Below, one piece after another: positions 14,570 through 28,692 of a stretch of 64,000 nucleotides of DNA. The position numbers and the translations under genes were made by a program. The stretch lies in assembly GCA_903872075.1 (NCBI GenBank), contig CAIQJF010000100.1, positions 1 through 64,000 on the forward strand, in the 5' to 3' direction. The first letter of the stretch is position 1, and every line of letters begins with the position of its first letter. Under the pieces are notes generated by a model. It saw only the letters and a list, made by a program, of their open reading frames with translations, did not search any database and was not told the DNA's origin. This stretch comes from an uncultured Caulobacteraceae bacterium (GTDB lineage Bacteria; Pseudomonadota; Alphaproteobacteria; Caulobacterales; Caulobacteraceae).

Positions 14570-17500
14570 TCAGACATCCCTGGAACCCCTCGCCACGAGC
14601 ACCGACATCGTGGTGTCGGACGTCAGGGGGGCGGGAAGTGTCTGGCCGCCGCCCGTCGCGCCGCCGACCTGAGCCATGGACTGCACGAACTGCGCCAGCA
14701 CTTGGCTTTGCGAGCCGCTCAGGGCTGGGGGCCGGTCGGCAGCGATGGTCCAGCTGGTGTCGACAACGCCGAGGTCGGCCGAGGTGAAGGCCGCATAGCC
14801 TGGGCCGCTGTTGGACAGCCATTCGGTGACATCGCCGGTCGTGGTGTTGCGCCACAGGACGTCGGCCTTGCCGTCGCCATTGAAATCGCGAACCCCCATC
14901 ACCGACCAGGCCGAACCCATCGTCCCGATGTCCTGTGGCGTGTAGCCGCCGGGTCCGGTGGTGAACCAGGCGCTCACCGTGCCGTCGGTGTTGCGCCAGA
15001 GCAGATCGCTGAGGCCGTCGCCATTGAGATCTCCGACAGCCTCAATCGTCCAGGATGTCGGGACAACCCCCAGACCAGGGGTGGTGAAGCTCGAGAAACC
15101 GGTTCCCGCGGTCGAGAGCCATTCGGAGACCTCGCCGCTGGTGTTGCGCCACAGGATGTCGGCCTTGCCGTCGCCGTTGAAGTCGCCGGCGAACTGGACC
15201 TTCCAGCTAGCGTCTATGACAGCCAGATCCTGGGCCGCGTAGCCGCCGCCGGGCGCGGTGAACCACAGGCTGACGGTTCCATTCGTGTTGCGCCAGAGAA
15301 CGTCGCTGAGACCGTCGCCATCGAAATCCCCGGCGCCCTGGATGGTCCAGGCGGATGGGACCACACCGAGGCCGGGCGTCGTATAGCCGCCGCCGGGTTT
15401 CGACAGCCATTCGGAGACCTCGCCATTGGCGTTGCGCCAGAGGATGTCGGACTGACCGTCGCCATTGAAATCGGCCGTGAGCTGGATGACCCAGCTGGGG
15501 TCGATGACCGCAAGATCCTGAAACGTGTGGCCGCCGCCCGCACCGGTGTACCAGACGGTGACCGTGCCGTTCGCGTTGCGCCAGAGGATGTCGCTCAGGG
15601 CGTCGCCGTTGAAGTCCGAGGGCGGACGGCGCGGCTTGGCCGTCAGGCCTGGCGGCCGGTCAGCGGCGACGGTCCAGCTGTTGGGAATGACGCCGAGGTC
15701 GGTGGAGGTGAAGCCGGCGTAGCCCTGGCCGCTGTTGGACAGCCACTCGGTCACGTCGCCGGTGCTGGTGTTGCGCCACAGGACGTCCGCCTTCCCGTCG
15801 CCGTTGAAGTCGCGCACGCCCATCACCGACCAGGCCGAGCCCATCGCGCCGATATCCTGGGGCGCGTAGCCGCCGGCGCCGGTGGTGACCCAGATGCTCA
15901 CCGTGCCGTTGGTGTCGCGCCAGAGAAGGTCGCTTAGGCCATCGCCATTGAAATCGGCCACGCCCTCGATCGTCCAGGATGTCGGGACAACCCCCAAACC
16001 GGGGGTGGTGAAGCCTGAGAAACCGGTTCCCGTGGTCGAGAGCCATTCGGAGACCTCGCCGCTCGTTTTGCGCCAGAGGATGTCCGCCTTGCCGTCGCCG
16101 TTGAAATCGCCGGTGAACTGTATCGACCAGCTGGAGTCGATCACGGCCAGATCCTGGGACGTGTAGCCGCCGCCCACCCCGGTGAACCACAGGCTGACGG
16201 TTCCATTGGCGTTGCGCCAGAGGATGTCGCCGAGACCGTCGCCGTTGAAGTCGCCGGCCGCCTGGATGGTCCAGAAGGACGGGACCACGCCAAGGCCCGG
16301 GGTCGTATAGCCGCCGCCGGGCTTGGACAGCCACTCGGAGACCTCGCCGTTGGCGTTGCGCCACAGGATGTCGGCCACGCCATCGCCGTTGAAATCGGCG
16401 CCGAGCTGGATGACCCAGCTGGGGTCGATGATCGCCAGATCCTGAGCCGTGTGGCCGCCGCCCGAGCTGGTGGACCAGAGGCTGACCGTCCCGTTGCTGT
16501 TGCGCCAGAGGATATCGCTCAGGCCGTCGCCATTGAAGTCGTCCGGCGGCGGCGCATAGGCGATGAGATTTGTCCCGCCGGTTCCATCGCTTACCGCCTT
16601 GAACAACAGGCCGGGGGCGGTGACCCCGTCCAGCGTGTCCGTCGTCGCGCCGCCGCTGGTCACGATCAACTGGTTCGCGGCGTTCGTATGGGCCCCGGTG
16701 GCGACGACGTTTCCGAGATCGAGGGTGGCGCCGGCGCGCAGGGTGAGCGCCTGGACCACGCCGCCGCCCTGGTACACCGACAGCACGCCGTTGGCCTCGA
16801 TCGTGATCCCGCTGACCGTCCCACCCGCCTCGACCTGGAGATAGGCCTTTTTCGCCGTCGACGAGCCGCTGATCACGACCCCTTCGGCCAGTCCGTAGTC
16901 AAACAGGTTACCCGTGATGAGGCCGGGCCCGGACAGCGTGCCGCCGGACGACACGGTCGTGAGGCCGGGCAGGATGTCCCCGGCGGGAAGGACGAGGAAG
17001 CCCCCGGTCTGGACTGTGGCGGCCTGCGTCTCGATGACGCCGCCGCTCATCACCGTCACCCCACTGACCACCGTTGTATCTGTCGCGGTCGTGGAGATCA
17101 CCGTGGTGCTCGTCCCGCCCGGCACGATCAGTTCGGTCCCCAGAATCCCGCCGCTGCTGACGACCAGGTTGGAGGCCAAGGCGCCTGAGTAGAACCGCTC
17201 GAGGCCGCCGGACATGACGGTGGTCCCGCTGCTGTAACCGTTTGACCGGACCAGTTGGAAACCGCCGGACTGGACGACGACACCCGAAGCGCTTGCGCCG
17301 CTGGAGACCACCTGCTCGCCGCCAGCCTCCAGGGTGGCGCCGATGTCCAGCCCGCCGCTCAGGACAAATTCGATGCCGCCGGAGACCACGATCGCCTGGG
17401 CGGTTCCGGCCGACCCCACGTTCAGCGTGCCGCCGCTTTGGACCGTGACGCCGCTATCGACTTCGCCGGCGGCGATGTTCACCGTCTGTCCGGAAGAGAC

Positions 17501-18673
17501 GGTGGTGATCGGCGCCACGGATGACAGGGTCCAGCCGATGACGTCCAAGGTCAGCAGGTCGGGATAGGTAACCGCCCCCACAAGGCCGGTCGTCGTCACG
17601 CCATAGGCGTCGTATTGGTTGGATTGCCCGGCGATATAGGTGAGCTGCTGGCCGGTGCTCGAGGGATCCCAGTCGGCCGAGTCCGCTCCGTCATTGAGCC
17701 CGAAGAAACCGATGGGACTATGGAATTCGGTCAGCATCTGCGTGCCGTTGACCGAGAAGTAGGCCGGACGTCCGCTCTGCCCCAGGCTGGCGTCCGGCAC
17801 ACCGGGGGCGGCGTAGCGGAACAAATCCATGACGTTGGGTGCCCCGCCGGCGCCACCGATGCGTCCGAGCCCCCCCTCGGAAATTTCGTGTTCGAGGATG
17901 GCGACGGCGTCGTACGCGCCGTAGGCCGGCGCGCTCTGGTCGTAGAAATAGGGCAAGCCGCTGCTGAGCTCGGTCGTGTCGCTGGTCGTCGGGTCCGCGC
18001 CGGGGAGACCCAGCACCACAGCCAGGGACTGGGCGATCGCGAACGTCGTCCCGCCGAACGTACTCGCCAGGCCTTTCATCGCGCCCGTCGCGGCGATGTC
18101 GGCCGCGCTCGTCGCGGCCTTGGCCAGCGCCGTCTGCAGCTGCGAGAAATTCGTATAGTAGGGCGTGAAGCTGTTCTGTCCCGCCGCCGCCAGGGGCGAC
18201 ATCTGGAACGAGAAATTCAAGGTCGCGGTGCTGGCGATCCGGGCCTGATAGAAGGCCTCGGCCGAGACGATGGCGTTCTCGAACCCCTGCCCGACACTGC
18301 TGTCGAGGGTGTTGACGAATTGAAGATGGCTGCCGGCCAGGATGAGGGTTTGCTGGGCGGTGACCTGCGGCGAGACGGGGTCGTTGGCCTCCGGTGCGAC
18401 ACCCAGATCGAAGATGTTCGTGCCGCCATTGTTGTCGCTCACCAGCGCGATCGAGGCGCCCTGGAAGTCTCCTGAGAGCTGCACCGTGCTGCTGGCTCCG
18501 GAGCCGCTGTAGACGGTCAGGAGATCGGTCGCGGGATCGAGATAGGCGGAGGTGATGTTCGCATAGGCGATCGACGTCACGTCGATCACGCCGCCAGAGC
18601 CGAGAGCCTGCGCCGTGGTCAGGCTCACCGGCGCCACCGCGTCGGAGACGATATAGCCGCCGTTGGGAACCAT
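14570..18673 (-). CDS. Large repeat protein: N-terminal metalloprotease-like domain (NF038122-like), AIDA/TibA-type strand-loop-strand repeats, 12 FG-GAP/VCBS-type repeats, conserved C-terminal tail
   Basis: AILEHEISEGGLGRIGG...LDVIGW; SGGTLNVGSAGTAQAIVVSGG... repeats; DFNGDG(L/K)xDILWRN x12. No signal peptide at MVPNGGYIVSDA... and no beta-barrel. Confidence 0.85.
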   Translation of the reverse strand: MVPNGGYIVSDAVAPVSLTTAQALGSGGVIDVTSIAYANITSAYLDPATDLLTVYSGSGASSTVQLSGDFQGASIALVSDNNGGTNIFDLGVAPEANDPVSPQVTAQQTLILAGSHLQFVNTLDSSVGQGFENAIVSAEAFYQARIASTATLNFSFQMSPLAAAGQNSFTPYYTNFSQLQTALAKAATSAADIAATGAMKGLASTFGGTTFAIAQSLAVVLGLPGADPTTSDTTELSSGLPYFYDQSAPAYGAYDAVAILEHEISEGGLGRIGGAGGAPNVMDLFRYAAPGVPDASLGQSGRPAYFSVNGTQMLTEFHSPIGFFGLNDGADSADWDPSSTGQQLTYIAGQSNQYDAYGVTTTGLVGAVTYPDLLTLDVIGWTLSSVAPITTVSSGQTVNIAAGEVDSGVTVQSGGTLNVGSAGTAQAIVVSGGIEFVLSGGLDIGATLEAGGEQVVSSGASASGVVVQSGGFQLVRSNGYSSGTTVMSGGLERFYSGALASNLVVSSGGILGTELIVPGGTSTTVISTTATDTTVVSGVTVMSGGVIETQAATVQTGGFLVLPAGDILPGLTTVSSGGTLSGPGLITGNLFDYGLAEGVVISGSSTAKKAYLQVEAGGTVSGITIEANGVLSVYQGGGVVQALTLRAGATLDLGNVVATGAHTNAANQLIVTSGGATTDTLDGVTAPGLLFKAVSDGTGGTNLIAYAPPPDDFNGDGLSDILWRNSNGTVSLWSTSSGGGHTAQDLAIIDPSWVIQLGADFNGDGVADILWRNANGEVSEWLSKPGGGYTTPGLGVVPSFWTIQAAGDFNGDGLGDILWRNANGTVSLWFTGVGGGYTSQDLAVIDSSWSIQFTGDFNGDGKADILWRKTSGEVSEWLSTTGTGFSGFTTPGLGVVPTSWTIEGVADFNGDGLSDLLWRDTNGTVSIWVTTGAGGYAPQDIGAMGSAWSVMGVRDFNGDGKADVLWRNTSTGDVTEWLSNSGQGYAGFTSTDLGVIPNSWTVAADRPPGLTAKPRRPPSDFNGDALSDILWRNANGTVTVWYTGAGGGHTFQDLAVIDPSWVIQLTADFNGDGQSDILWRNANGEVSEWLSKPGGGYTTPGLGVVPSAWTIQGAGDFDGDGLSDVLWRNTNGTVSLWFTAPGGGYAAQDLAVIDASWKVQFAGDFNGDGKADILWRNTSGEVSEWLSTAGTGFSSFTTPGLGVVPTSWTIEAVGDLNGDGLSDLLWRNTDGTVSAWFTTGPGGYTPQDIGTMGSAWSVMGVRDFNGDGKADVLWRNTTTGDVTEWLSNSGPGYAAFTSADLGVVDTSWTIAADRPPALSGSQSQVLAQFVQSMAQVGGATGGGQTLPAPLTSDTTMSVLVARGSRDV
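14735..16540 (-). repeat. FG-GAP/VCBS-type repeat array, 12 units of ~48-51 aa in two blocks of six
   Basis: Twelve DFNGDG-type units counted in the translation. A linker ADRPPGLTAKPRRPPS separates units 6 and 7. Confidence 0.9.
16610..17510 (-). repeat. AIDA/TibA-like autotransporter strand-loop-strand repeat region inside CDS 14570..18673
   Basis: Repeated xVxSGGxxxV... pattern: VDSGVTVQSGGTLNVGSAGTAQAIVVSGGIEFVLSGGLDIGATLEAGGEQVVSSGASASGVVVQSGGFQLV. Confidence 0.8.
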
Positions 18674-18753
18674 CGTCTCTGTCACGGCGGCAGTCCTCCG
18701 GAAGTGGCCATAGCTCAGGGACGAGGACGTCCTGCGGATCGTCGGGCCAAGTT

Positions 18754-20103
18754 CTAACTTTGAACTGTAGTCTGCTTCACTCGCGCGCCCAAAGCACGAT
18801 CGATCATCCTGTTCACGTGAGCGCCTGTAATCAGCTTCGTGCATTCAAAGTGGCGCGGCGTGTTCTGGTGCCGGGGGCACCACATGAAATCGTTGTGCTG
18901 AAACCGCTCCTTCGGATCGTTCCAGCAGCTGTTGCAGGCATGCCAGTTGATCACGCGATAGGGCGTGGTGAATTCGTTCGACGGATGGGTGAAGCCGCTG
19001 ATCAGCACGGTCGGCGTTCCGCCCCCCCAGGCCAGCCACGCCAGGCCGCTGGACAGGCCGACAAAGGCCGCCGCATGTTTCAGCCACCGGGCGCGCTCGG
19101 TCAGTGGCCGGTCGCCGGTCTCGTCCTCGGCGCCGTGCGGGAGGTGGGTGTAGAGAAGGCCTGACCCATGGACCGGCTTCTGGTCGATGCAGATCACCCG
19201 ATAGCCCAGGCTCTTGATATGGGCGACGACCTCGCGCCAGCCGAGGGGATTGTTCCACATCTTGCAGCCGCTGGAACTTTGCACCGCGATGCAGACATAG
19301 GGCTCGGCGATGGGCCGACTGTCGTCGGTCAGGGCGATCCTGGGGGGAGTCTCGGCGGGATCGACGCCCAGAATGTAGCCCGCGGTGCGGTGAAGACCGA
19401 CCTGGCGGAAATCGGTGGGCTGCCAGGTATTGTCCTTGTCGTCGAAGAACAGGCCCAGGGCGTAGGTGGCGTAGGCCCCGTCAGCCAGCTTGAGCGCCAA
19501 GGCCTGGTCGTGATCGACGAAGGTTATCTCGGGATAGGTCTCCTTCAGCAGAGGGATGATCAGCGGCGAGAGGGCGCAGGTCAGCCTGCACCCGTGGGCC
19601 GTCCGGAACCGTTCCGCATACGGAAACCACGCCAGGACATCGCCAAGCGTGCCGATCGGAAAGTTGATCGTCACCTCCCGATCCCTGCAGTCGTGGTCAT
19701 GCTCGAAAATCAGCTCGTCACCGTCGCGGACTTCCAGGCGGAAGCGCACGTAGAAACGCTTCGAACTGGCGACGAAGGCGCCCCGGTTCTCGCTCTCGAA
19801 CAGCACATTGCCGGTGTCCAGATCGCGCAGACGCACCTTCCACGGCGGATCGGTGTCCGCCCGGGGCGGAAGAACGATCCTGGCGCCCTGGTTGAAGTCA
19901 TAGCGGATGCCAAGAGGCCCCAGCTGAGTGGGCGTGGCGGCGGGCGGCGGATAGGCCGGCTTCTCTGCTTTCAGCGGCGGCGAGGCAGGCGCATCGCTGC
20001 CTGACGCTGCCGCCTGGCTGTCCGCCCGCAAGGGTGTGGCGCTCGCGACGGAAGCGCCGGCCGGATCGGGCGCTGCAATCGAGCCGGGCGGCGTAGACGT
20101 CAT
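18754..20103 (-). CDS. Autotransporter strand-loop-strand O-heptosyltransferase (BAHT family, TibC/Aah-like)
   Basis: IRYDFNQGARIVLP..., VTINFPIGTLGDVLAWFPYAERF, SSSGCKMWNNPLGWREVVAHIKSLGYRVICID, GLSSGLAWLAWGGGTPTVLISGFTHPSNEF, four-Cys C-terminal motif CNSC...C...C. Confidence 0.88.
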   Translation of the reverse strand: MTSTPPGSIAAPDPAGASVASATPLRADSQAAASGSDAPASPPLKAEKPAYPPPAATPTQLGPLGIRYDFNQGARIVLPPRADTDPPWKVRLRDLDTGNVLFESENRGAFVASSKRFYVRFRLEVRDGDELIFEHDHDCRDREVTINFPIGTLGDVLAWFPYAERFRTAHGCRLTCALSPLIIPLLKETYPEITFVDHDQALALKLADGAYATYALGLFFDDKDNTWQPTDFRQVGLHRTAGYILGVDPAETPPRIALTDDSRPIAEPYVCIAVQSSSGCKMWNNPLGWREVVAHIKSLGYRVICIDQKPVHGSGLLYTHLPHGAEDETGDRPLTERARWLKHAAAFVGLSSGLAWLAWGGGTPTVLISGFTHPSNEFTTPYRVINWHACNSCWNDPKERFQHNDFMWCPRHQNTPRHFECTKLITGAHVNRMIDRALGARVKQTTVQS

Positions 20104-20158
20104 GCTAGGGTCACACCCGCGCCGGCCAGGACCTAACCGTCAATTTGCCGGGGCAAAC

Positions 20159-23002
20159 TCAGACCGCCCCGGACCCCGGCGCCGCAAGCACAGATGTCGT
20201 CGCGTCCGGCGTCATCAAGGTCGAGACCGTCTGGCCGCTCCCCGTATCGCCGCCCACCTGGGCCATGGACTGAACGAACTGGGCCAGGGCCTGGGTCTGC
20301 GAGCCGGTGAGGGCCGGCGGCCTGTCGGCGATGATGGTCCAGCTGTTGGGGATCACGCCCAGGTCGCTGGAGGTGAAGCCGGTATATCCCTGGCCGCTGT
20401 TCGAGAGCCACTCAGTGACATCGCCGGTGGTGGTGTTGCGCCACAGGACATCGGCCTTGCCGTCGCCGTTGAAGTCGCGGACGCCCATCACCGACCAGGC
20501 CGAACTCATGGCTCCCAGGTCCCGGGGCGTGTAGCCGCCGCCATCGGTGGTCAGCCAGGAGCTGACCGTGCCGTTGGTGTTGCGCCACAGGATATCGCTG
20601 AGCCCGTCGCCGTTCAGGTCGCCCACGCCCTCGATGACCCAGGAACTCGGCAGCACGCCGAAGCCCGGCGTGGTGAAGCCGGTGAAGCCCTGGCCCGGCT
20701 TCGAGAGCCACTCGGACACCTCGCCGCTGGTGTTGCGCCAGAGGATATCGGCCTTGCCGTCGCCGTTGAAGTCGCCGGTGTTCTGGATCACCCAGCTGGA
20801 CGGGATGATCCCGAGATCCTGCGAGGTATGGCCGCCGCCGGCTGTGGTGAACCAGACGCTGACCGTGCCGTTGGTGTTGCGCCACAGAAGGTCGCTCAGA
20901 CCGTCGCCGCTGAAGTCCGCCGCGCCCTCGATGGACCAGGACGTGGGAATGATACCGAAGCTCGGTGTGGTGAAGCCGCCGCCGGACTTCGAGAGCCACT
21001 CGGACAGCTCGCCACTGGTGTTGCGCCAGACAATGTCGGCCTTGCCGTCGCCGTTGATGTCGGCCGAGGCCTGGACGCTCCAGCTGGTGGCGGGAATGCC
21101 CAGATCCTGAGCGGTATGCCCGCCACCCTGGCTGGTGGTCCACAGGCTGACGGTGCCGTTGGTGTTGCGCCAGAGAATGTCGCTGAGCTTGTCGCCGTTG
21201 AAATCGAAGGACGTCGGCGGCGCCGCAGGCGTCAGACTGGCGCTGAGCGCCGGCGGCTTGTCGCCTACCACGGTCCAGCCGTTGGCGAGCGGAGCCTGGG
21301 TGTTGTTGGTGAAGCCCGTGAAACCGGTCCCAGCCGTCGACAGCCATTCCAGGGCGTCGCCGTTGGCGTCGCGCCACAGGATGTCGGCCTTGCCGTCGCC
21401 GTTGAAGTCACGGACGCCCTGCACAACCCAGCTGCTGCCCAGCGTGCCGACATCGACGGGCGTGTAGCCACCGCCCGGCGTGGTGATCCACAGGCTGGCG
21501 GCGCCACTGCTGTTGCGCCAGAAGATGTCGCTCATCCCGTCGCCATTGAAGTCGCCGACGCCGGCGATGGTCCAGGAACTGGGAATGACGCCGAAGCTGG
21601 GCGTTGTGTATCCGGACCCGGTCGCCGACGCGTTAGACACCCATTCGGAGACTTCGCCGCTGCTGTTGCGCCAGAGGATGTCGGCCTTGCCGTCGCTGTT
21701 GAAGTCGCCGACGAACTGAATCGTCCAGCTCGAGTCGATGACACCGAGATCCTGGGAAGTGTGGCCGCCGCCGACGGTGGTCAGCCACATGCTGACCGTG
21801 CCGTTGGTGTTACGCCAGAGAATGTCGCTCAGGCCATCGCCGTTGAAATCGCCGGCGGCCTGAACCTGCCAGGCATTGGACACGATGCCAAACCCCGGCG
21901 TGGTAAAGCCGCCGCCCGGCTTGGAGAGCCACTCCGACAGTTCGCCGCTGGTGTTGCGCCAGAGGATGTCGGCCTTGCCGTCGCCGTTGAAGTCGCCGGT
22001 GGTCTGGATCACCCAGCTGTTCGGAATCACGCCCAGGTTTTGGGTCGTATGGGAGCCGCCGCTGGCGCCGTTCCACAGCCGCACGCTGCCGTCCAGGTTG
22101 CGCTGCAGGATGTCGCTTAGGCCGTCGCCCTGGAAGTCGAAGTTGGCGGTGTTGGACGGGTAGGTGACGGTCAGGGGCGTCGCCACGAACCCGTGCAGAC
22201 CGGTGGCGTCGAAGTACTCTCCGACGAGCTGGCCGTTGTTGTTGACCCCGTTGATATAGCTGCCGTTGGTCGACAGGGGCTCGTCGATGGTGGTGAACAC
22301 GCCGCCAATGTCGGTGAAGGCGTGAACGTGGCTCGCGTCGGCGTAGTAGCCGACAATCTCGCCCGCGTTGTTGATCCCGGTGACATAGGTGCCGTTGACG
22401 CCGAGCGGATCATTGATCGTGGTGAACGTGCCGTTCGTGTAGCTGAAGCCATGCCAGCCGATGGCGTCGAGATATTCACCCACCACGACGCCGGAGTCAT
22501 TCACGCCTGTGGGGATGGTGACGGTGGTCACGAACAGGGCGCCGAACGACAGCGGGTCGTCGATGGTGGTGTAGACGCCGTTCTGCAGGATGAAGCCGTG
22601 CTGGCTGACGAAGTTCTGGGCGTCCGAGATGCCGTACCAGCCGACGATCGTCCCGGTTGAATTGATGGCCGTGGCCACGGTGTCCTTGGCCCCGCGATTG
22701 ACCGCCAGGGGATCGTCCAGGGTCGTGAACACGCCGCCGCTGTAGACATAGCCGTGATTGCCGCTCGCATCCTGGAACGACCCGACAATCTGGCCACTGT
22801 TGTTGATGCCGCTGGCGTCACTGCCGTTGCTCGTGCCGGGGGGCTCAAGCGTTGTGTACACGCCGCTGTCGAACGTGAAGCCATGATCGAGCTGGTCGAT
22901 CTGATAGACGCCGACGATCTTGCCGGAGTCGTTGATCGCCGAGGCGCTTGTGCCGGTGTTGGCCAAGCTGTCGTCGAGGGTGCTGTACTTGTACGCCGTC
23001 AT
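20159..23002 (-). CDS. Large repeat protein: N-terminal HAF-type repeats, 12 FG-GAP/VCBS-type repeats, conserved C-terminal tail
   Basis: SGINNSGQIVGSFQDASGNHGYVYSGGVFTTLDDP (HAF repeats); DFNGDGKADILWRN repeats; no signal peptide at MTAYKYSTLDD. Confidence 0.87.
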   Translation of the reverse strand: MTAYKYSTLDDSLANTGTSASAINDSGKIVGVYQIDQLDHGFTFDSGVYTTLEPPGTSNGSDASGINNSGQIVGSFQDASGNHGYVYSGGVFTTLDDPLAVNRGAKDTVATAINSTGTIVGWYGISDAQNFVSQHGFILQNGVYTTIDDPLSFGALFVTTVTIPTGVNDSGVVVGEYLDAIGWHGFSYTNGTFTTINDPLGVNGTYVTGINNAGEIVGYYADASHVHAFTDIGGVFTTIDEPLSTNGSYINGVNNNGQLVGEYFDATGLHGFVATPLTVTYPSNTANFDFQGDGLSDILQRNLDGSVRLWNGASGGSHTTQNLGVIPNSWVIQTTGDFNGDGKADILWRNTSGELSEWLSKPGGGFTTPGFGIVSNAWQVQAAGDFNGDGLSDILWRNTNGTVSMWLTTVGGGHTSQDLGVIDSSWTIQFVGDFNSDGKADILWRNSSGEVSEWVSNASATGSGYTTPSFGVIPSSWTIAGVGDFNGDGMSDIFWRNSSGAASLWITTPGGGYTPVDVGTLGSSWVVQGVRDFNGDGKADILWRDANGDALEWLSTAGTGFTGFTNNTQAPLANGWTVVGDKPPALSASLTPAAPPTSFDFNGDKLSDILWRNTNGTVSLWTTSQGGGHTAQDLGIPATSWSVQASADINGDGKADIVWRNTSGELSEWLSKSGGGFTTPSFGIIPTSWSIEGAADFSGDGLSDLLWRNTNGTVSVWFTTAGGGHTSQDLGIIPSSWVIQNTGDFNGDGKADILWRNTSGEVSEWLSKPGQGFTGFTTPGFGVLPSSWVIEGVGDLNGDGLSDILWRNTNGTVSSWLTTDGGGYTPRDLGAMSSAWSVMGVRDFNGDGKADVLWRNTTTGDVTEWLSNSGQGYTGFTSSDLGVIPNSWTIIADRPPALTGSQTQALAQFVQSMAQVGGDTGSGQTVSTLMTPDATTSVLAAPGSGAV
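20325..22138 (-). repeat. FG-GAP/VCBS-type repeat array, 12 units in two blocks of six
   Basis: Units counted in translation. A linker DKPPALSASLTPAAPPTSF separates the blocks. Confidence 0.9.
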
Positions 23003-23129
23003 AGGATCTTTCCAATGGCCCGCCGACCGTCGCAGGCTCGCGCAAGCTACACGCGCCCGGCCGAATCGCAATGTTCGCCTCTAACGCACGGAGGAAACTC
23101 TGGTTCCCGTCTGCGCCGCGACGCGGAAT

Positions 23130-23624
23130 TCAACCCGTAAAATCTCCCGGCGCGCAGCCGGCGGCATGGGCGCTATCGAGGGCGGCGGCGAAGCCGGTGA
23201 CGCCAACCCTGACAATCGTGCGGTTGACTCCGGCTCTGATGGAGATTCGGCGCGCCTGGCTGAGCCGGGCCTCCGGGATGCGGACCACGCCGCCACTAGG
23301 ATTTGCAAGATCGTCTTGGTCGATGGCGAAGCCCCGCCGCGCCATGTCCATCAGTTCCGACCGGACCGCGACCGGCGGCCCGTCGTCCACGCGATAGACA
23401 GCGTCGGCGGTGTCGGTCCGACGTCCGAGCCGAACCACCAGCGCGCCGCGTTCATAAGTCAGGCCGGGCGCTGTGACCCGGCAGGTTCTGCGGCCGGCGA
23501 AGCGGTCGTCGCGGGTTTCCACCGTCCAGGCCCCGAGTCGATGACGTTCGACCACGAGGGCCGGCGCATGTCGCCATGGCCATAGGCTCAGCATGATCGG
23601 CGCGAGAACCAGCGGAAGGGGCAT
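23130..23624 (-). CDS. Hypothetical protein within the type I secretion locus
   Basis: 164-aa ORF, N-terminal hydrophobic MPLPLVLAPIMLSLWPW; co-directional, lies between the TolC-like gene and the HAF/FG-GAP gene. Confidence 0.6.
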   Translation of the reverse strand: MPLPLVLAPIMLSLWPWRHAPALVVERHRLGAWTVETRDDRFAGRRTCRVTAPGLTYERGALVVRLGRRTDTADAVYRVDDGPPVAVRSELMDMARRGFAIDQDDLANPSGGVVRIPEARLSQARRISIRAGVNRTIVRVGVTGFAAALDSAHAAGCAPGDFTG

Positions 23625-23641
23625 GGGCCGGACCTCTCGTC

Positions 23642-25131
23642 TCAGGGCTTTTGTGACTGGGGGAGGGGCGGAAGGTCTGACGGGCGGGACCCGCCCTCTT
23701 GTTTCGCCATCGGGCGTCCAGGCGCCGCCGCGCCGAGGCTATCGACGGCGCCGACGACGGCCTCCCACGGCGGGGCGTCGATGCGTTTGGCGCGATCGAG
23801 GTCGGACCGCGTATCATAGGCCTCGACCCCCGGAACCAGGAATCGCGCTTCCAACAGGCCCATGGCCGCGAGGACGGACGCTCTGGCCAGGTATTCGTCA
23901 TGCCGCCCCTGCACCAGAGTGACCCGGCTGGTGGTCAGTTCCAGCTCGGCGTTGAGAAGCTCGATGGTGGATCGCAACCCGGCGCGCTCCTCGATCCGAT
24001 TGCCCTCAACCGAGGCTCTCTCGGCCTCGACCTGGCGCACCTCGATGGCCAGGGCGCCGCGCGTCGACACCAGCTGGCTCCAGGCCTGCGCCACCTGCTG
24101 GATGACGCCCCGGCGCGTGGCTTCGATTTCCAACTGCGCCTGGCTGTCGCGATCGGCCGCCTCGCGCACGCGCGAGTTGGTCAGACCCGAGGTGAACAGC
24201 GGCTGGCTGAACGTCACCGCGCCGGTCAGACTGCGCGCATACTGCTTCTCCAGATAGGCGGCGGCCGGCGTGACCGTGGCGTCGACCCTCACTGAGAGAG
24301 TCGGCCCAAAGGCCGCCTTGGCCTGGGCGATGCGTTGACGGGCCGACCGTTCGGTCGCGATCGCGGCCATCAGCTGGGGATTGTTCCGCTCGGCGGCGTC
24401 GAACGCCTCCTCGACCGTCCGCGGCAGGCCCGCAAGCTCCGGCTCGGGATCCAGGGCGCCGGGACTCTGGCCGACCACGGCCAGATACTGCGCGTTACTG
24501 ACGTTCAGGCGGCCTTCGGCGAGATTGAGTTCGGCCTGGGCCGAGAGCATGCGGCCGAGCGTTCGGCCACGTCGGTCCGGGTAAGCTGGCCGCCCTCGCC
24601 CTTCGCCTTTGTCTCATCGAACTCGGCGGTCAGATTGGCGATCTCGTCCTTCAGTACACGAATGGTCTCGCGGTCACGCCGCAAATCCAGATAGGCCGTG
24701 ATCACGCGGACAATCAGGTCGCTCTCGGCCCGCCGGAGGTTCGCCCGTCCGGCGAGAACGTCAGCGCTCGCCGCCTGAATCTGGGCTCGGGTCGCCCCGC
24801 CAGAGTAGAGCGGCTGGACGATGGACAGGTCGGCCGACTCGGTCTGGGCCCGGTAGGTCTTGTCGGCGGCCGGGCTGAAGGGGCTGCCCGGCTGCTCTAT
24901 GCGCGCCACGTCGTATCCAGCCTGACCGGTGATCCCGACCTGCGGCCCGTAGCCCGCGCGCGCCTGCACCAGTCCCTCGTCGATCGCGCGCAGCTGGGCG
25001 CGTTGGGCGCGAAGGGTCGGATTGGTCTGATAGGCCAGCAGGATGGCGTCGGTGAGCGACTCGGCGAGAGCGGCGGCGGGCGACGCGGCCAGCAGAATGG
25101 CCAGCAGGGCGCCCCGCCCCTCACCGCTCAT
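23642..25131 (-). pseudogene. TolC-family outer membrane protein (type I secretion), split by a frameshift near 24550
   Basis: N-half ESLTDAILLAYQTNPTLRAQRAQLRAIDEGLVQARAGYGPQV...GQLTRTDVA in ORF 24505..25131. C-half MLSAQAELNLAEGRLNVSNAQYLAVVG...QAWSQLVSTRGALAI in ORF 23642..24550. Confidence 0.85.
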
Positions 25132-26569
25132 GCAGGCTCTCCTGGGTCTTCCGGGCGATCGGCGAGAGCAGGTAGTCGATGATGCTGCGCTTGCCTGTGC
25201 GGATCTCGGCCGTCACGGCCATGCCGGGCTGAATCGGCCGGGTCTCGCCGTCCACCACCATGCTCGTCCGCGCCAGCGCTATGCGCGCCACATAGGTCGG
25301 CGCCGCGGCCGGGCGGTTCGCCGCGGTCGCGCCGGAGGCGTCGGCGGGCGGCTGCGCCTGGGCCACGACATCGCGGCTGACGCTCACGACCCGACCGTCA
25401 AGGAAGCCGTAGCGCGTGAAACTGAAGGTCTCGATCTTCACCTTCACCGCCTGGCCCGCATGGACGAAGCCCACATCGCGATTGGCCAGCTGGGCCTCGA
25501 TCACCAGGTCGCGGCTGTCGGGGACGACAATCATCAGATGCTGGGCGGGTGTCACCACGCCGCCCAGGGTGTGAACGGCCAGCTGTTCGACCACGCCATC
25601 CACCGGCGCACGAATCTCCGCCTGAGCGGTCTTGTCCTGCGCCTTGATCAACTGCTGGCTGAGCTCGTTCTCGCGCTCTTCCGCCTTGCGGAGATCGGAG
25701 AGGACATCGGCGGCAAATTGCGAGCCGGCGCCGTCCCTCTGGCGCTCCAGCGCCTTGCGGGCGGCCGCCGCCTGACGCGCGCGCTGAAGCTGCACGTTGA
25801 GCTCCTGCCGCGCGGCCGTGACCTGCTGCTGGGCGTCCAGATAGGACAGGGTCGTGCCATAGCCGCGGGCGGTCAGGTCGCGATGGATGCGCTCTTTCTC
25901 CGCCAGCATGGGCAGGGTGGCGTTGAGCTTGTCGATTTCCGCCCGCGCCTCGGCTTCCTGCGCCGCCTTCTCCGCCGCCTGCTGGCCCAGGGCGGCGACA
26001 CGCGCCGCCTCCAGATCCGCCTGGGCGCGCATGGCGGCTCGGGCCTCCTCGATCCCTTCCGGTGGGGCGCCGCGCGGCGCGACGAACTCGCGACCGCCGC
26101 CGGCGAAGCCGCCCCTCAGGCCCGTGAGCCGGGCCACGTCCAGACGCGCCTGGACGAGATCGCGCGCGATGCGATCGCGGTCCGCGCCGACCTGCGTGGG
26201 GTCAAGCTCGACCATGACCTGTCCGGCCTTTACGTGATCGCCGTCCTGCACCCGGATGGCGCGCACCACGCCGGGATCCAGGGGCTGAATGGTCTTGATG
26301 TCGCCGGCCGGCAGGACCCGGCCCTGGGCGGTCGCCAGCACGTCCACGTGACCGATGAAGGCCCAGGCCACAGCGCAGACGAAGAACAGCACGATCACCG
26401 CGGCGAACACCCGCGCCACCGGAGATGGCGGGGTCTGAATCACCTCCAGGGCGGCGGGCAGGAACTCGCGCTCATCCTGCGGCTCCAGCGCGCCCACCAG
26501 CGCCGCAAACCGGCTGCTCAGGTCCCGACGGGGTTTCGGGTTCGGCGTGTTGTTTTCAGGTCCGGTCAT
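25121..26569 (-). CDS. HlyD/PrtE-family type I secretion periplasmic adaptor
   Basis: AWAFIGHVDVLATAQGRVLPAGDIKTIQPLDPGVVRAIRVQDGDHVKAGQVMVELDPTQ..., APVDGVVEQLAVHTLGGVVTPAQHLMIVVP. Confidence 0.95.
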   Translation of the reverse strand: MTGPENNTPNPKPRRDLSSRFAALVGALEPQDEREFLPAALEVIQTPPSPVARVFAAVIVLFFVCAVAWAFIGHVDVLATAQGRVLPAGDIKTIQPLDPGVVRAIRVQDGDHVKAGQVMVELDPTQVGADRDRIARDLVQARLDVARLTGLRGGFAGGGREFVAPRGAPPEGIEEARAAMRAQADLEAARVAALGQQAAEKAAQEAEARAEIDKLNATLPMLAEKERIHRDLTARGYGTTLSYLDAQQQVTAARQELNVQLQRARQAAAARKALERQRDGAGSQFAADVLSDLRKAEERENELSQQLIKAQDKTAQAEIRAPVDGVVEQLAVHTLGGVVTPAQHLMIVVPDSRDLVIEAQLANRDVGFVHAGQAVKVKIETFSFTRYGFLDGRVVSVSRDVVAQAQPPADASGATAANRPAAAPTYVARIALARTSMVVDGETRPIQPGMAVTAEIRTGKRSIIDYLLSPIARKTQESLHER

Positions 26570-28692
26570 AGGGAGGACTGCAACCGCCAGAGTTCGGCGT
26601 ACCGCCCGCCCTTGGCCAGCAGGCTCTGATGCGTGCCGTCCTCAACGATCCGGCCCTTCTCGATCGTGACAATCCGCTGGGCGACCCTGAGGGTCGAGAG
26701 CCGGTGAGCGATGAGGATCACTGTCCGGCCCCGGCAGATGTCGCGCATATTGGCCTGGATGGCCGCCTCGCTCTCATAGTCGAGGGCGGAGGTCGCCTCG
26801 TCGAAGATCAGGATCCGCGGATCGCGGACCAGGGCCCGCGCGATGGCGATACGCTGCCGCTGACCGCCGCTGAGCGAAGCGCCCCGCTCGCCGATCATGG
26901 TGCCATAGCCGCGCGGCAGAGCGCTGATGAACTCGTGGGCCCCGGCAAGTTTGGCCGCCGCCACGATCCGCGCCGCGTCCATGCCGGGATCGGCCAGGGC
27001 GATGTTGTCGCGCACCGAGCGGTTGAACAGCACGCTCTCCTGCATGACCACGCCCAGCCGGCTGCGGAGCCAGGCGGGATCCACCACGGCCAGGTCGTGG
27101 CCGTCGACGAACACGCGGCCGGTCTCGGGCGAGTAGAGGCGCTGGATCAGCTTGGCCAAGGTGCTCTTGCCTGACCCTGAGGAGCCCACCACGCCGAGGA
27201 TCTGGCCGGCGGGAATGTCGAGATCGACGTCGGTGAGCACGGGCTGGCCATCGAGACGATAGCGGAAGCTGACGGCCTCCAGGCGGATATGGCCGGCGAT
27301 ATCCGGCAGATCGGCGGCTTCCGCCGCGCCCGGTTCGGGGATGCTGTTGAGGATGTCGCCGGTGCGGTCGATGGAAAGCCGCACCTGCTGGAAATCCTGC
27401 CACAGTTGGGCGATGCGCAGCACCGGGCTCGCCAGCTGCGCGGCGATCATGTTGAAGGCCACCAGCTCGCCGACGGTGAGGCGGCTGTCGATCACAAGCC
27501 GGGCGCCGAAGAACAGCACCAGCACCACGGTGATCTTGTTGATGAAGGCGGCGGTCTGGCTGCCCACGGTGTTGAGCAGGGTGACCTGGAAGGAGGCCTT
27601 CACATAGGCCGCCAGCTGCTCGCCCCAGCGCGCGCGCATGAGGGGCTCGACGGCCATGGACTTGAGGGTTTCGACCCCCGAGACGGCCTCCACCAGGAAG
27701 GTCTGGTTCTCCGAGCCCCGGCGGAACCGTTCATCAAGACGCGACTTGAAGGCCGGCGTCAGCAGGACGCTGAGCAGCACGTAACTGGGCAGGGCCGCGG
27801 CCACGATCAGGGTCAGCAGCGGGCTGTAGAGGAACAGCACCGCCAGAAAGATCAGGGCGAAGAACAGATCCAGCGACAGGGTCAGAGCCGAGGAGGTCAG
27901 GAACTGGCGGATGTTGTCCAGCTCACGCACCCTTGCGATCGTGTCGCCCACCCGCCGGGCCTGGAAATAGGCCATGGGCAGGGAGAACAGGTGGCTGAAC
28001 AGTCGCGCCCCCAGCTCCACGTCAATCCGGTTGGAGGTGTGGGCCAGGAGATAGGTCCGAAGGCCCCCCAGCACGACCTCGAAGACGCCCAGGGTCGCCA
28101 TGCCGATGGCCAGAACCTCAAGCGTGGAGAGCCCCCGGTGCACGAAGACCTTGTCGATGATCACCTGGAAGAACAACGGCGTCAGCAGGGCGAACAGCTG
28201 GACGAAGAACGAGCCGATCAGCACTTCGCCGAGCGGGCGACGGTATTTCCGGATCGCGGCCACGAACCACAGGATGCCGAAGCGCTGATAGGGATCGTCC
28301 AGGGCCGCGCGCCGGGCCATGAGCAGGATCTGGCCGTCCCAGATCCGGGCGAATTCGGCCGGCGTCAGGGTCCGGGGACGATCTTCTCCCGGGACTTGCA
28401 ACAGCACCCGCTCGGCGTCCGCGCCGCCGAACAGAACCCACCCCAAGTCACGCAGGCGCGCCAACGCCGGGGCCGGCGTGGTCTTGAGTCGCTCGAGCGT
28501 GGTGGAAACCTGCCGCGCTTTCACATTGAACCGCCGGGCGATGGCGATCAGATCGACGACCTCAAGCCGCGCCTTGCCGCTCTCATACAGCAGGGCCGCC
28601 GGATCGGCGGGAATCCCCAGCACTTGCAGGCAGAACGCCAGGGCCGCCGCGGCGCTGTCGGGGGTCCGGTCGTCGCCGGCGTCCAGACTCAT
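26566..28692 (-). CDS. HlyB-like type I secretion ABC transporter (C39-like N-terminal domain, TM domain, ATPase)
   Basis: VVGSSGSGKSTLAK (Walker A), LSGGQRQRIAIARALVRDPRILIFDEATSALDYESE; TLTPAEFARIWDGQILLMARR; N-terminal peptidase-like domain without the canonical C39 Cys motif. Confidence 0.95.
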   Translation of the reverse strand: MSLDAGDDRTPDSAAAALAFCLQVLGIPADPAALLYESGKARLEVVDLIAIARRFNVKARQVSTTLERLKTTPAPALARLRDLGWVLFGGADAERVLLQVPGEDRPRTLTPAEFARIWDGQILLMARRAALDDPYQRFGILWFVAAIRKYRRPLGEVLIGSFFVQLFALLTPLFFQVIIDKVFVHRGLSTLEVLAIGMATLGVFEVVLGGLRTYLLAHTSNRIDVELGARLFSHLFSLPMAYFQARRVGDTIARVRELDNIRQFLTSSALTLSLDLFFALIFLAVLFLYSPLLTLIVAAALPSYVLLSVLLTPAFKSRLDERFRRGSENQTFLVEAVSGVETLKSMAVEPLMRARWGEQLAAYVKASFQVTLLNTVGSQTAAFINKITVVLVLFFGARLVIDSRLTVGELVAFNMIAAQLASPVLRIAQLWQDFQQVRLSIDRTGDILNSIPEPGAAEAADLPDIAGHIRLEAVSFRYRLDGQPVLTDVDLDIPAGQILGVVGSSGSGKSTLAKLIQRLYSPETGRVFVDGHDLAVVDPAWLRSRLGVVMQESVLFNRSVRDNIALADPGMDAARIVAAAKLAGAHEFISALPRGYGTMIGERGASLSGGQRQRIAIARALVRDPRILIFDEATSALDYESEAAIQANMRDICRGRTVILIAHRLSTLRVAQRIVTIEKGRIVEDGTHQSLLAKGGRYAELWRLQSSL

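Follow-up and report, generated by a model that had tools for sequence, protein, structure and literature searches.

A type I secretion gene cluster with its own O-heptosyltransferase and a predicted heptosylated cargo in a Caulobacteraceae bacterium

A stretch of 64,000 nucleotides from an uncultured Caulobacteraceae bacterium (positions 1 to 64,000 of contig CAIQJF010000100.1, assembly GCA_903872075.1; hereafter the window) carries a HlyB-type type I secretion system (T1SS) next to genes for an O-heptosyltransferase of the BAHT family (TIGR04414) and a large strand-loop-strand (SLS) repeat protein. We consider it probable, judging from the sequence, that this is a T1SS operon carrying its own BAHT and that the SLS cargo is heptosylated in the cytoplasm before export. 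A preliminary description of the window had proposed this route for two repeat proteins, and our results support it for the SLS protein only; neither of the sequence-level findings named there as speaking against it, a hidden signal peptide or barrel and a lack of conserved synteny, turned up.

All seven genes are on the minus strand and run from 28692 to 14570 in the order ABC exporter, HlyD adaptor, TolC-like protein, small protein, HAF/FG-GAP protein, BAHT and SLS/FG-GAP protein. The distances between them are -4, -11, 17, 127, 55 and 80 bp, with a frameshift within the TolC gene, and this short or overlapping spacing makes a single transcript plausible. The genes, order, direction and coordinates given in the preliminary description, including the 4-bp ABC/HlyD and 11-bp HlyD/TolC overlaps, agree with the profile matches and the positions of the open reading frames (ORFs). 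From the large profile scores and the recurrence of the cluster elsewhere, we exclude chance as its origin. The genome is 93% complete in an assembly of 100 contigs, with the locus on contig C100.

The heptosyltransferase and the adjacent repeat protein

The BAHT gene (18754 to 20103, minus strand) encodes 449 amino acids and matches TIGR04414 with 608 bits (cut-off 200), and the protein aligns to TibC (4rb4/4rap) with 445 bits over residues 53-437. In TibC, Asp110 is the catalytic base while Thr226, Lys230, Arg286 and Trp305 bind the sugar (PMC4358343). Asp110, Lys230, Arg286 and Trp305 are identical in the window enzyme (Asp155, Lys281, Arg337 and Trp356), Thr226 corresponds to Ser277, and all four iron-finger cysteines (339, 342, 358 and 370 of TibC) are kept. 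Pro300, which determines donor stereoselectivity in TibC, has a Ser at its position, as reported for AAH. The BAHT family, whose traits include heptose transfer and assembly into dodecamers, was reportedly defined in a 2014 paper in Cell Host Microbe, and the window enzyme is predicted to transfer heptose as well. The ADP-heptose donor is probably made, since a gene for HldE domain I scores over the cut-off in the genome. In a genome of another family (G426, contig C22; L124:15293-18106), a BAHT-T1SS cluster has genes for an epimerase and an HldE-type kinase/nucleotidyltransferase at a distance of about 10 kb; these may provide nearby donor synthesis or may equally be lipopolysaccharide (LPS) genes.

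The SLS/FG-GAP protein (14570 to 18673, minus strand; 1367 amino acids from ATG 18673) has TIGR04415, AIDA and FG-GAP matches over the cut-off. The first ATG of its long ORF, at 18844, falls inside the BAHT gene, so the start is probably ATG 18673 (alternatively GTG 18685), which leaves the 80-bp gap after BAHT. The predicted heptose acceptors lie in an SLS (AIDA-type) repeat region recognized by PF16168 and TIGR04415 (16439 to 17521, minus strand), where the repeats occupy mainly the first two thirds and are strongest at 17246-17455; the matches to PF16168 and TIGR04415 fall at residues 490-547 and 502-534 when counted along the long ORF. An AlphaFold model of the region, made without an alignment, had a mean pLDDT of 44 and was not used. 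The protein is cysteine-free with an isoelectric point (pI) of 4.05, and a profile scan together with its composition gave no PF03797 barrel, no ESPR (PF13018) and no strongly hydrophobic N terminus. This agrees with the earlier view that no Sec signal or beta-barrel is visible in it, and neither was found in the large proteins when profiles and N-terminal hydrophobicity were used to look for hidden ones.

As in E. coli, the enzyme could instead glycosylate a true autotransporter encoded elsewhere, and the genome does contain two PF03797 matches, on contigs C13 and C3. However, these contigs lack TIGR04415 matches, all of which fall in the SLS ORF on C100, and we therefore rule out this target and regard such an arrangement as hardly credible.

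The preliminary description recognized the repeats and FG-GAP blocks of the SLS protein but missed a metalloprotease-like domain, NF038122, at 17519 to 18298 (minus strand; 89.2 bits, cut-off 80). The domain is also present (96 bits) in the SLS protein of G019, a relative assembled in two contigs, where the SLS gene lies between the T1SS and BAHT genes. HExxH is the general zinc motif of metalloproteases. Since both proteins have HExxE in its place, HEISE in the window protein and HEVSE in that of G019, catalysis is uncertain, and the domain is possibly inactive or uses another metal ligand. This N-terminal region was not named by Pfam and PDB sequence searches and matched NCBIfam NF038122 when scanned alone; it had no relatives on plasmids, and a protein search over 142 genomes of the class returned only itself.

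Exporter genes and the second large protein

The ABC exporter (26566 to 28692, minus strand; 708 amino acids) matches TIGR01846 with 960 bits (cut-off 725.55) as well as PF03412, PF00664 and PF00005. It begins with a C39-like domain in which, by eye, the cysteine at the catalytic position is missing, followed by the membrane and ATPase domains with Walker A, Walker B and LSGGQ motifs. The periplasmic adaptor (25121 to 26569, minus strand; 482 amino acids) matches TIGR01843 with 376 bits (cut-off 208.65). The two genes are adjacent with a 4-bp overlap and each scores over its curated cut-off, as expected of a HlyB-type T1SS.

The TolC-type outer membrane protein (23642 to 25131, minus strand; TIGR01844) had been described as a single gene, but it is spread over two ORFs, 24505-25131 and 23642-24550, that do not share a frame, with TIGR01844 positions 2-170 in one and 170-406 in the other. 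The gene is a single intact ORF in G019 and G055. Residues 22-191 of the G019 protein align at 25062-24553 and residues 192-491 at 24553-23660, and since the two halves abut at 24553, the window gene must be frameshifted near this position. The claim of a complete T1SS gene set thus holds for the presence of ABC, HlyD and TolC-type genes but not for an intact tolC. The frameshift may be real or an assembly error. If real, it could mean that the locus is decaying and the exporter non-functional in this strain. We find this improbable, since the remaining genes of the locus are intact, the two ORFs may result from a sequence error in an assembly of 100 contigs, and TolC could be supplied from elsewhere, with linked clusters in other bacteria (see below) showing no TolC match nearby.

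Next to tolC is a gene for a protein of 164 amino acids (23130 to 23624, minus strand) that was not assigned to any family in profile searches. Its homologues are found close to tolC in T1SS clusters that encode large RTX-type proteins and lack BAHT (L125 and L128-L131). On this evidence we regard the gene as a T1SS accessory that is not BAHT specific, and a role as BAHT helper is ruled out. The hydrophobic N terminus suggests that the protein is periplasmic or located in the membrane. Within the window's family, it recurs by tolC in HlyB-type T1SS clusters.

The HAF-repeat/FG-GAP protein (20159 to 23002, minus strand) matches TIGR02913 with 64 bits, PF13517 and PF01839, and is 947 amino acids long from ATG 23002, which is a more likely start than TTG 23071. 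Like the SLS protein it has no N-terminal signal and no cysteine, and its pI is 4.1. The last ~66 residues of the SLS protein (14570 to 14770, minus strand), a candidate uncleaved secretion signal, are 69% identical to the corresponding region of the HAF protein (20162 to 20359, minus strand), and both proteins contain FG-GAP blocks. The preliminary description had recognized both large proteins without noticing this common C terminus. Profile searches found no TIGR04415 match in the HAF protein, so that target repeats are confined to the SLS protein. Because the FG-GAP blocks and C terminus are shared and TIGR04415 is lacking, the HAF protein is likely a second cargo of the T1SS and not a predicted glycosylation target; of the two repeat proteins earlier taken to be heptosylated, the SLS protein stands as the predicted target.

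A C terminus common to both proteins regardless of target repeats would also fit a T1SS that exports both FG-GAP proteins while BAHT barely modifies them, being either a passenger gene or active on an SLS protein that is missing from the 93% complete assembly. TIGR04415 repeats are few in the SLS protein of the window, with three stretches over the threshold compared to 14 in G019. Nevertheless, we judge this explanation unlikely: the BAHT gene is intact, the active-site residues of its product are conserved, the SLS gene follows it directly, and this adjacency recurs at linked loci.

Linkage and repeat proteins in other genomes

Among the 149 genomes of the window's family, 6 have a BAHT and 20 a HlyB over the cut-off, and all 6 BAHT genomes have HlyB (hypergeometric p 2.8e-6, relatedness ignored). 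The genes are physically linked in three of them (G000, G019 and G027) and lie on separate contigs in the other three. A second family gave a similar picture, with BAHT in 9 of 75 genomes, HlyB in 21 and both in 8 (Fisher 9e-5, relatedness ignored). Here linkage was found in five genomes (G426, G535, G536, G550 and G580), and in four of these loci the SLS gene adjoins BAHT while ABC-HlyD is divergent; no SLS protein was recognized in the stretch of G536 examined. The linked arrangement also occurs at two Bradyrhizobium loci. The linked clusters of the second family and Bradyrhizobium have ABC and HlyD genes with no TolC match nearby. Conserved synteny of BAHT, SLS and HlyB-type T1SS genes extends to other genera of the window's family, to the second family and to Bradyrhizobium. 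Among 71 BAHT loci from public genomes, a HlyB-type ABC gene was found in the flanks of only three (L004, L024 and L053), many flanks being short.

In a BAHT tree made by a quick method and rooted at the midpoint, from which we claim no direction of change, the Caulobacteraceae neighbours of the window enzyme form a starred clade, apart from the members from Bradyrhizobium and the second family. Linked BAHTs occupy separate positions in this tree, so the linkage occurs in more than one lineage. The SLS proteins that adjoin HlyB in other genomes have no signal and no barrel, and nearly all of them contain no cysteine and have a pI of about 4. In Bradyrhizobium, the C-terminal domain of the SLS protein weakly matches VCBS proteins of Rhizobium, in whose neighbourhood no T1SS genes were annotated in the stretch viewed. 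Beside a BAHT 84% identical to that of the window, L002:7170-10229 contains YD-repeat-like frames and a duplicated BAHT C-terminal fragment, and the SLS partner is not there.

Of the stronger TIGR04415 matches listed for ten BAHT genomes, none was in frame with a PF03797 barrel. The SLS partners of Enterobacteriaceae, one Oxalobacter and one Paraburkholderia end in phenylalanine, and the E. whittamii control has ESPR, pertactin and barrel (PF03797) domains, whereas the alphaproteobacterial proteins lack this terminal Phe. Of the alphaproteobacterial partners scanned, five have AIDA repeats only, and three, from Acetobacteraceae, have AIDA repeats and end in a Hint_2 domain. At L007:3544-7389, L029:11234-13240, L110:14666-18400 and L139:11160-13586, all from Acetobacteraceae and relatives, the gene that follows BAHT codes for a protein with AIDA repeats, a C-terminal Hint_2 and no barrel; the one in L139 is annotated as a Hint domain-containing protein. 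In Saccharibacter and Gluconobacter (L052, L055, L056 and L057; also L030) there are two adjacent BAHT genes, one of them deeply divergent; the pair might serve to transfer a further sugar or to build mixed oligomers.

The Acetobacteraceae, which hold most of the BAHT loci found, have barrel-less SLS proteins without an adjacent HlyB-type T1SS, and three such genomes that we checked had no HlyB over the cut-off. It follows that alphaproteobacterial SLS proteins could exit by another route or through an unrecognized barrel partner, the HlyB neighbourhood being incidental. We find this quite improbable, given that the HlyB linkage recurs in two families and in Bradyrhizobium and that the SLS proteins lack both an N-terminal signal and the terminal Phe. 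A wider generalization, for which we would put the chances at somewhat below even, is that the alphaproteobacterial BAHT mainly serves barrel-less, signal-less SLS proteins exported by T1SS-like machines, including the Hint versions of Acetobacteraceae, with the enterobacterial autotransporter pairing as one branch.

Proposed export route and its relation to known systems

In the route that we favour, the SLS protein would be synthesized in the cytoplasm without a Sec signal, and BAHT would use ADP-heptose from the LPS precursor pathway to place heptose on Ser/Thr in the loops of the SLS repeats. The uncleaved C-terminal region would be recognized by HlyB/HlyD and the protein would leave through the TolC-type channel. 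That exporter would also carry the HAF protein, its second cargo, which would remain unglycosylated. Outside the cell, the FG-GAP blocks, rich in DxNGDGxxD loops, would probably fold with calcium, and the sugars would stabilize the repeat stalk.

Several observations weigh against this route. T1SSs are thought to export unfolded chains, while the beta-helix on which TibC acts is folded or partly so (PMC4358343, PMC8151025). Target repeats are few in the window SLS protein, neither large protein contains any RTX nonapeptide (GGxGxD), and the frameshift in tolC interrupts the T1SS set of this assembly. The common C terminus, a candidate signal, was found in no other genome among the 149 of the family, which rules it out as a family-wide signal. 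To this can be added the Acetobacteraceae loci without an adjacent HlyB and the disregard of relatedness in the co-occurrence p values.

The window locus resembles Aah/AIDA-I and TibC/TibA in enzyme family, catalytic and iron-finger residues, SLS-repeat target and the position of the enzyme gene directly upstream. In contrast to those systems, the target has no Sec signal, ESPR or PF03797, contains a metalloprotease-like domain and FG-GAP blocks, and belongs to a T1SS operon. An autotransporter partner is described as usual for the BAHT family and not as strictly defining, and the window partner has no PF03797. The HlyB/HlyD/TolC system exports HlyA acylated by HlyC, and there, as here, a C39-like HlyB-type ABC protein, HlyD and TolC are combined with a cytoplasmic modifying enzyme whose gene accompanies that of the cargo. 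The logic of heptosylation before export would be comparable, but the modification is a predicted O-heptosylation and not an acylation, and FG-GAP loops are found instead of RTX nonapeptides. HMW1C/HMW1A and EtpC/EtpA combine an N-glycosyltransferase with two-partner secretion (PMC8151025). They share with the window a dedicated cytoplasmic glycosyltransferase encoded with a secreted repeat protein and its exporter, but the enzyme family and sugar linkage are unrelated and secretion is type Vb instead of T1SS. Glycocins are small Gram-positive peptides with cleaved leaders that are exported by peptidase-containing ABC transporters. In these systems too, cytoplasmic glycosylation precedes ABC export, whereas the window proteins are large and the C39-like domain of the exporter has no catalytic Cys. 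Our literature searches found no paper on a combination of BAHT and T1SS, and the one review with both terms places BAHTs with type 5 secretion.

BAHT enzymes were named for autotransporters and have been studied with them. The pairing described here suggests that heptose tagging also serves a second route of secretion that is unrelated to the first. If this is true, cytoplasmic O-heptosylation would be compatible with another export machine that works by a different mechanism, and there would be a new angle on the release, unfolding and translocon hand-over of a heptosylated beta-helix, a question raised previously (PMC8151025). Cultured Bradyrhizobium strains in which the genes are linked, namely Bradyrhizobium rifense CTAW71 and Bradyrhizobium sp. 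BR13661, offer a test bed for the idea of a heptosylated T1SS cargo. The automatic name "autotransporter strand-loop-strand O-heptosyltransferase" would then be wrong wherever the partner is not an autotransporter.

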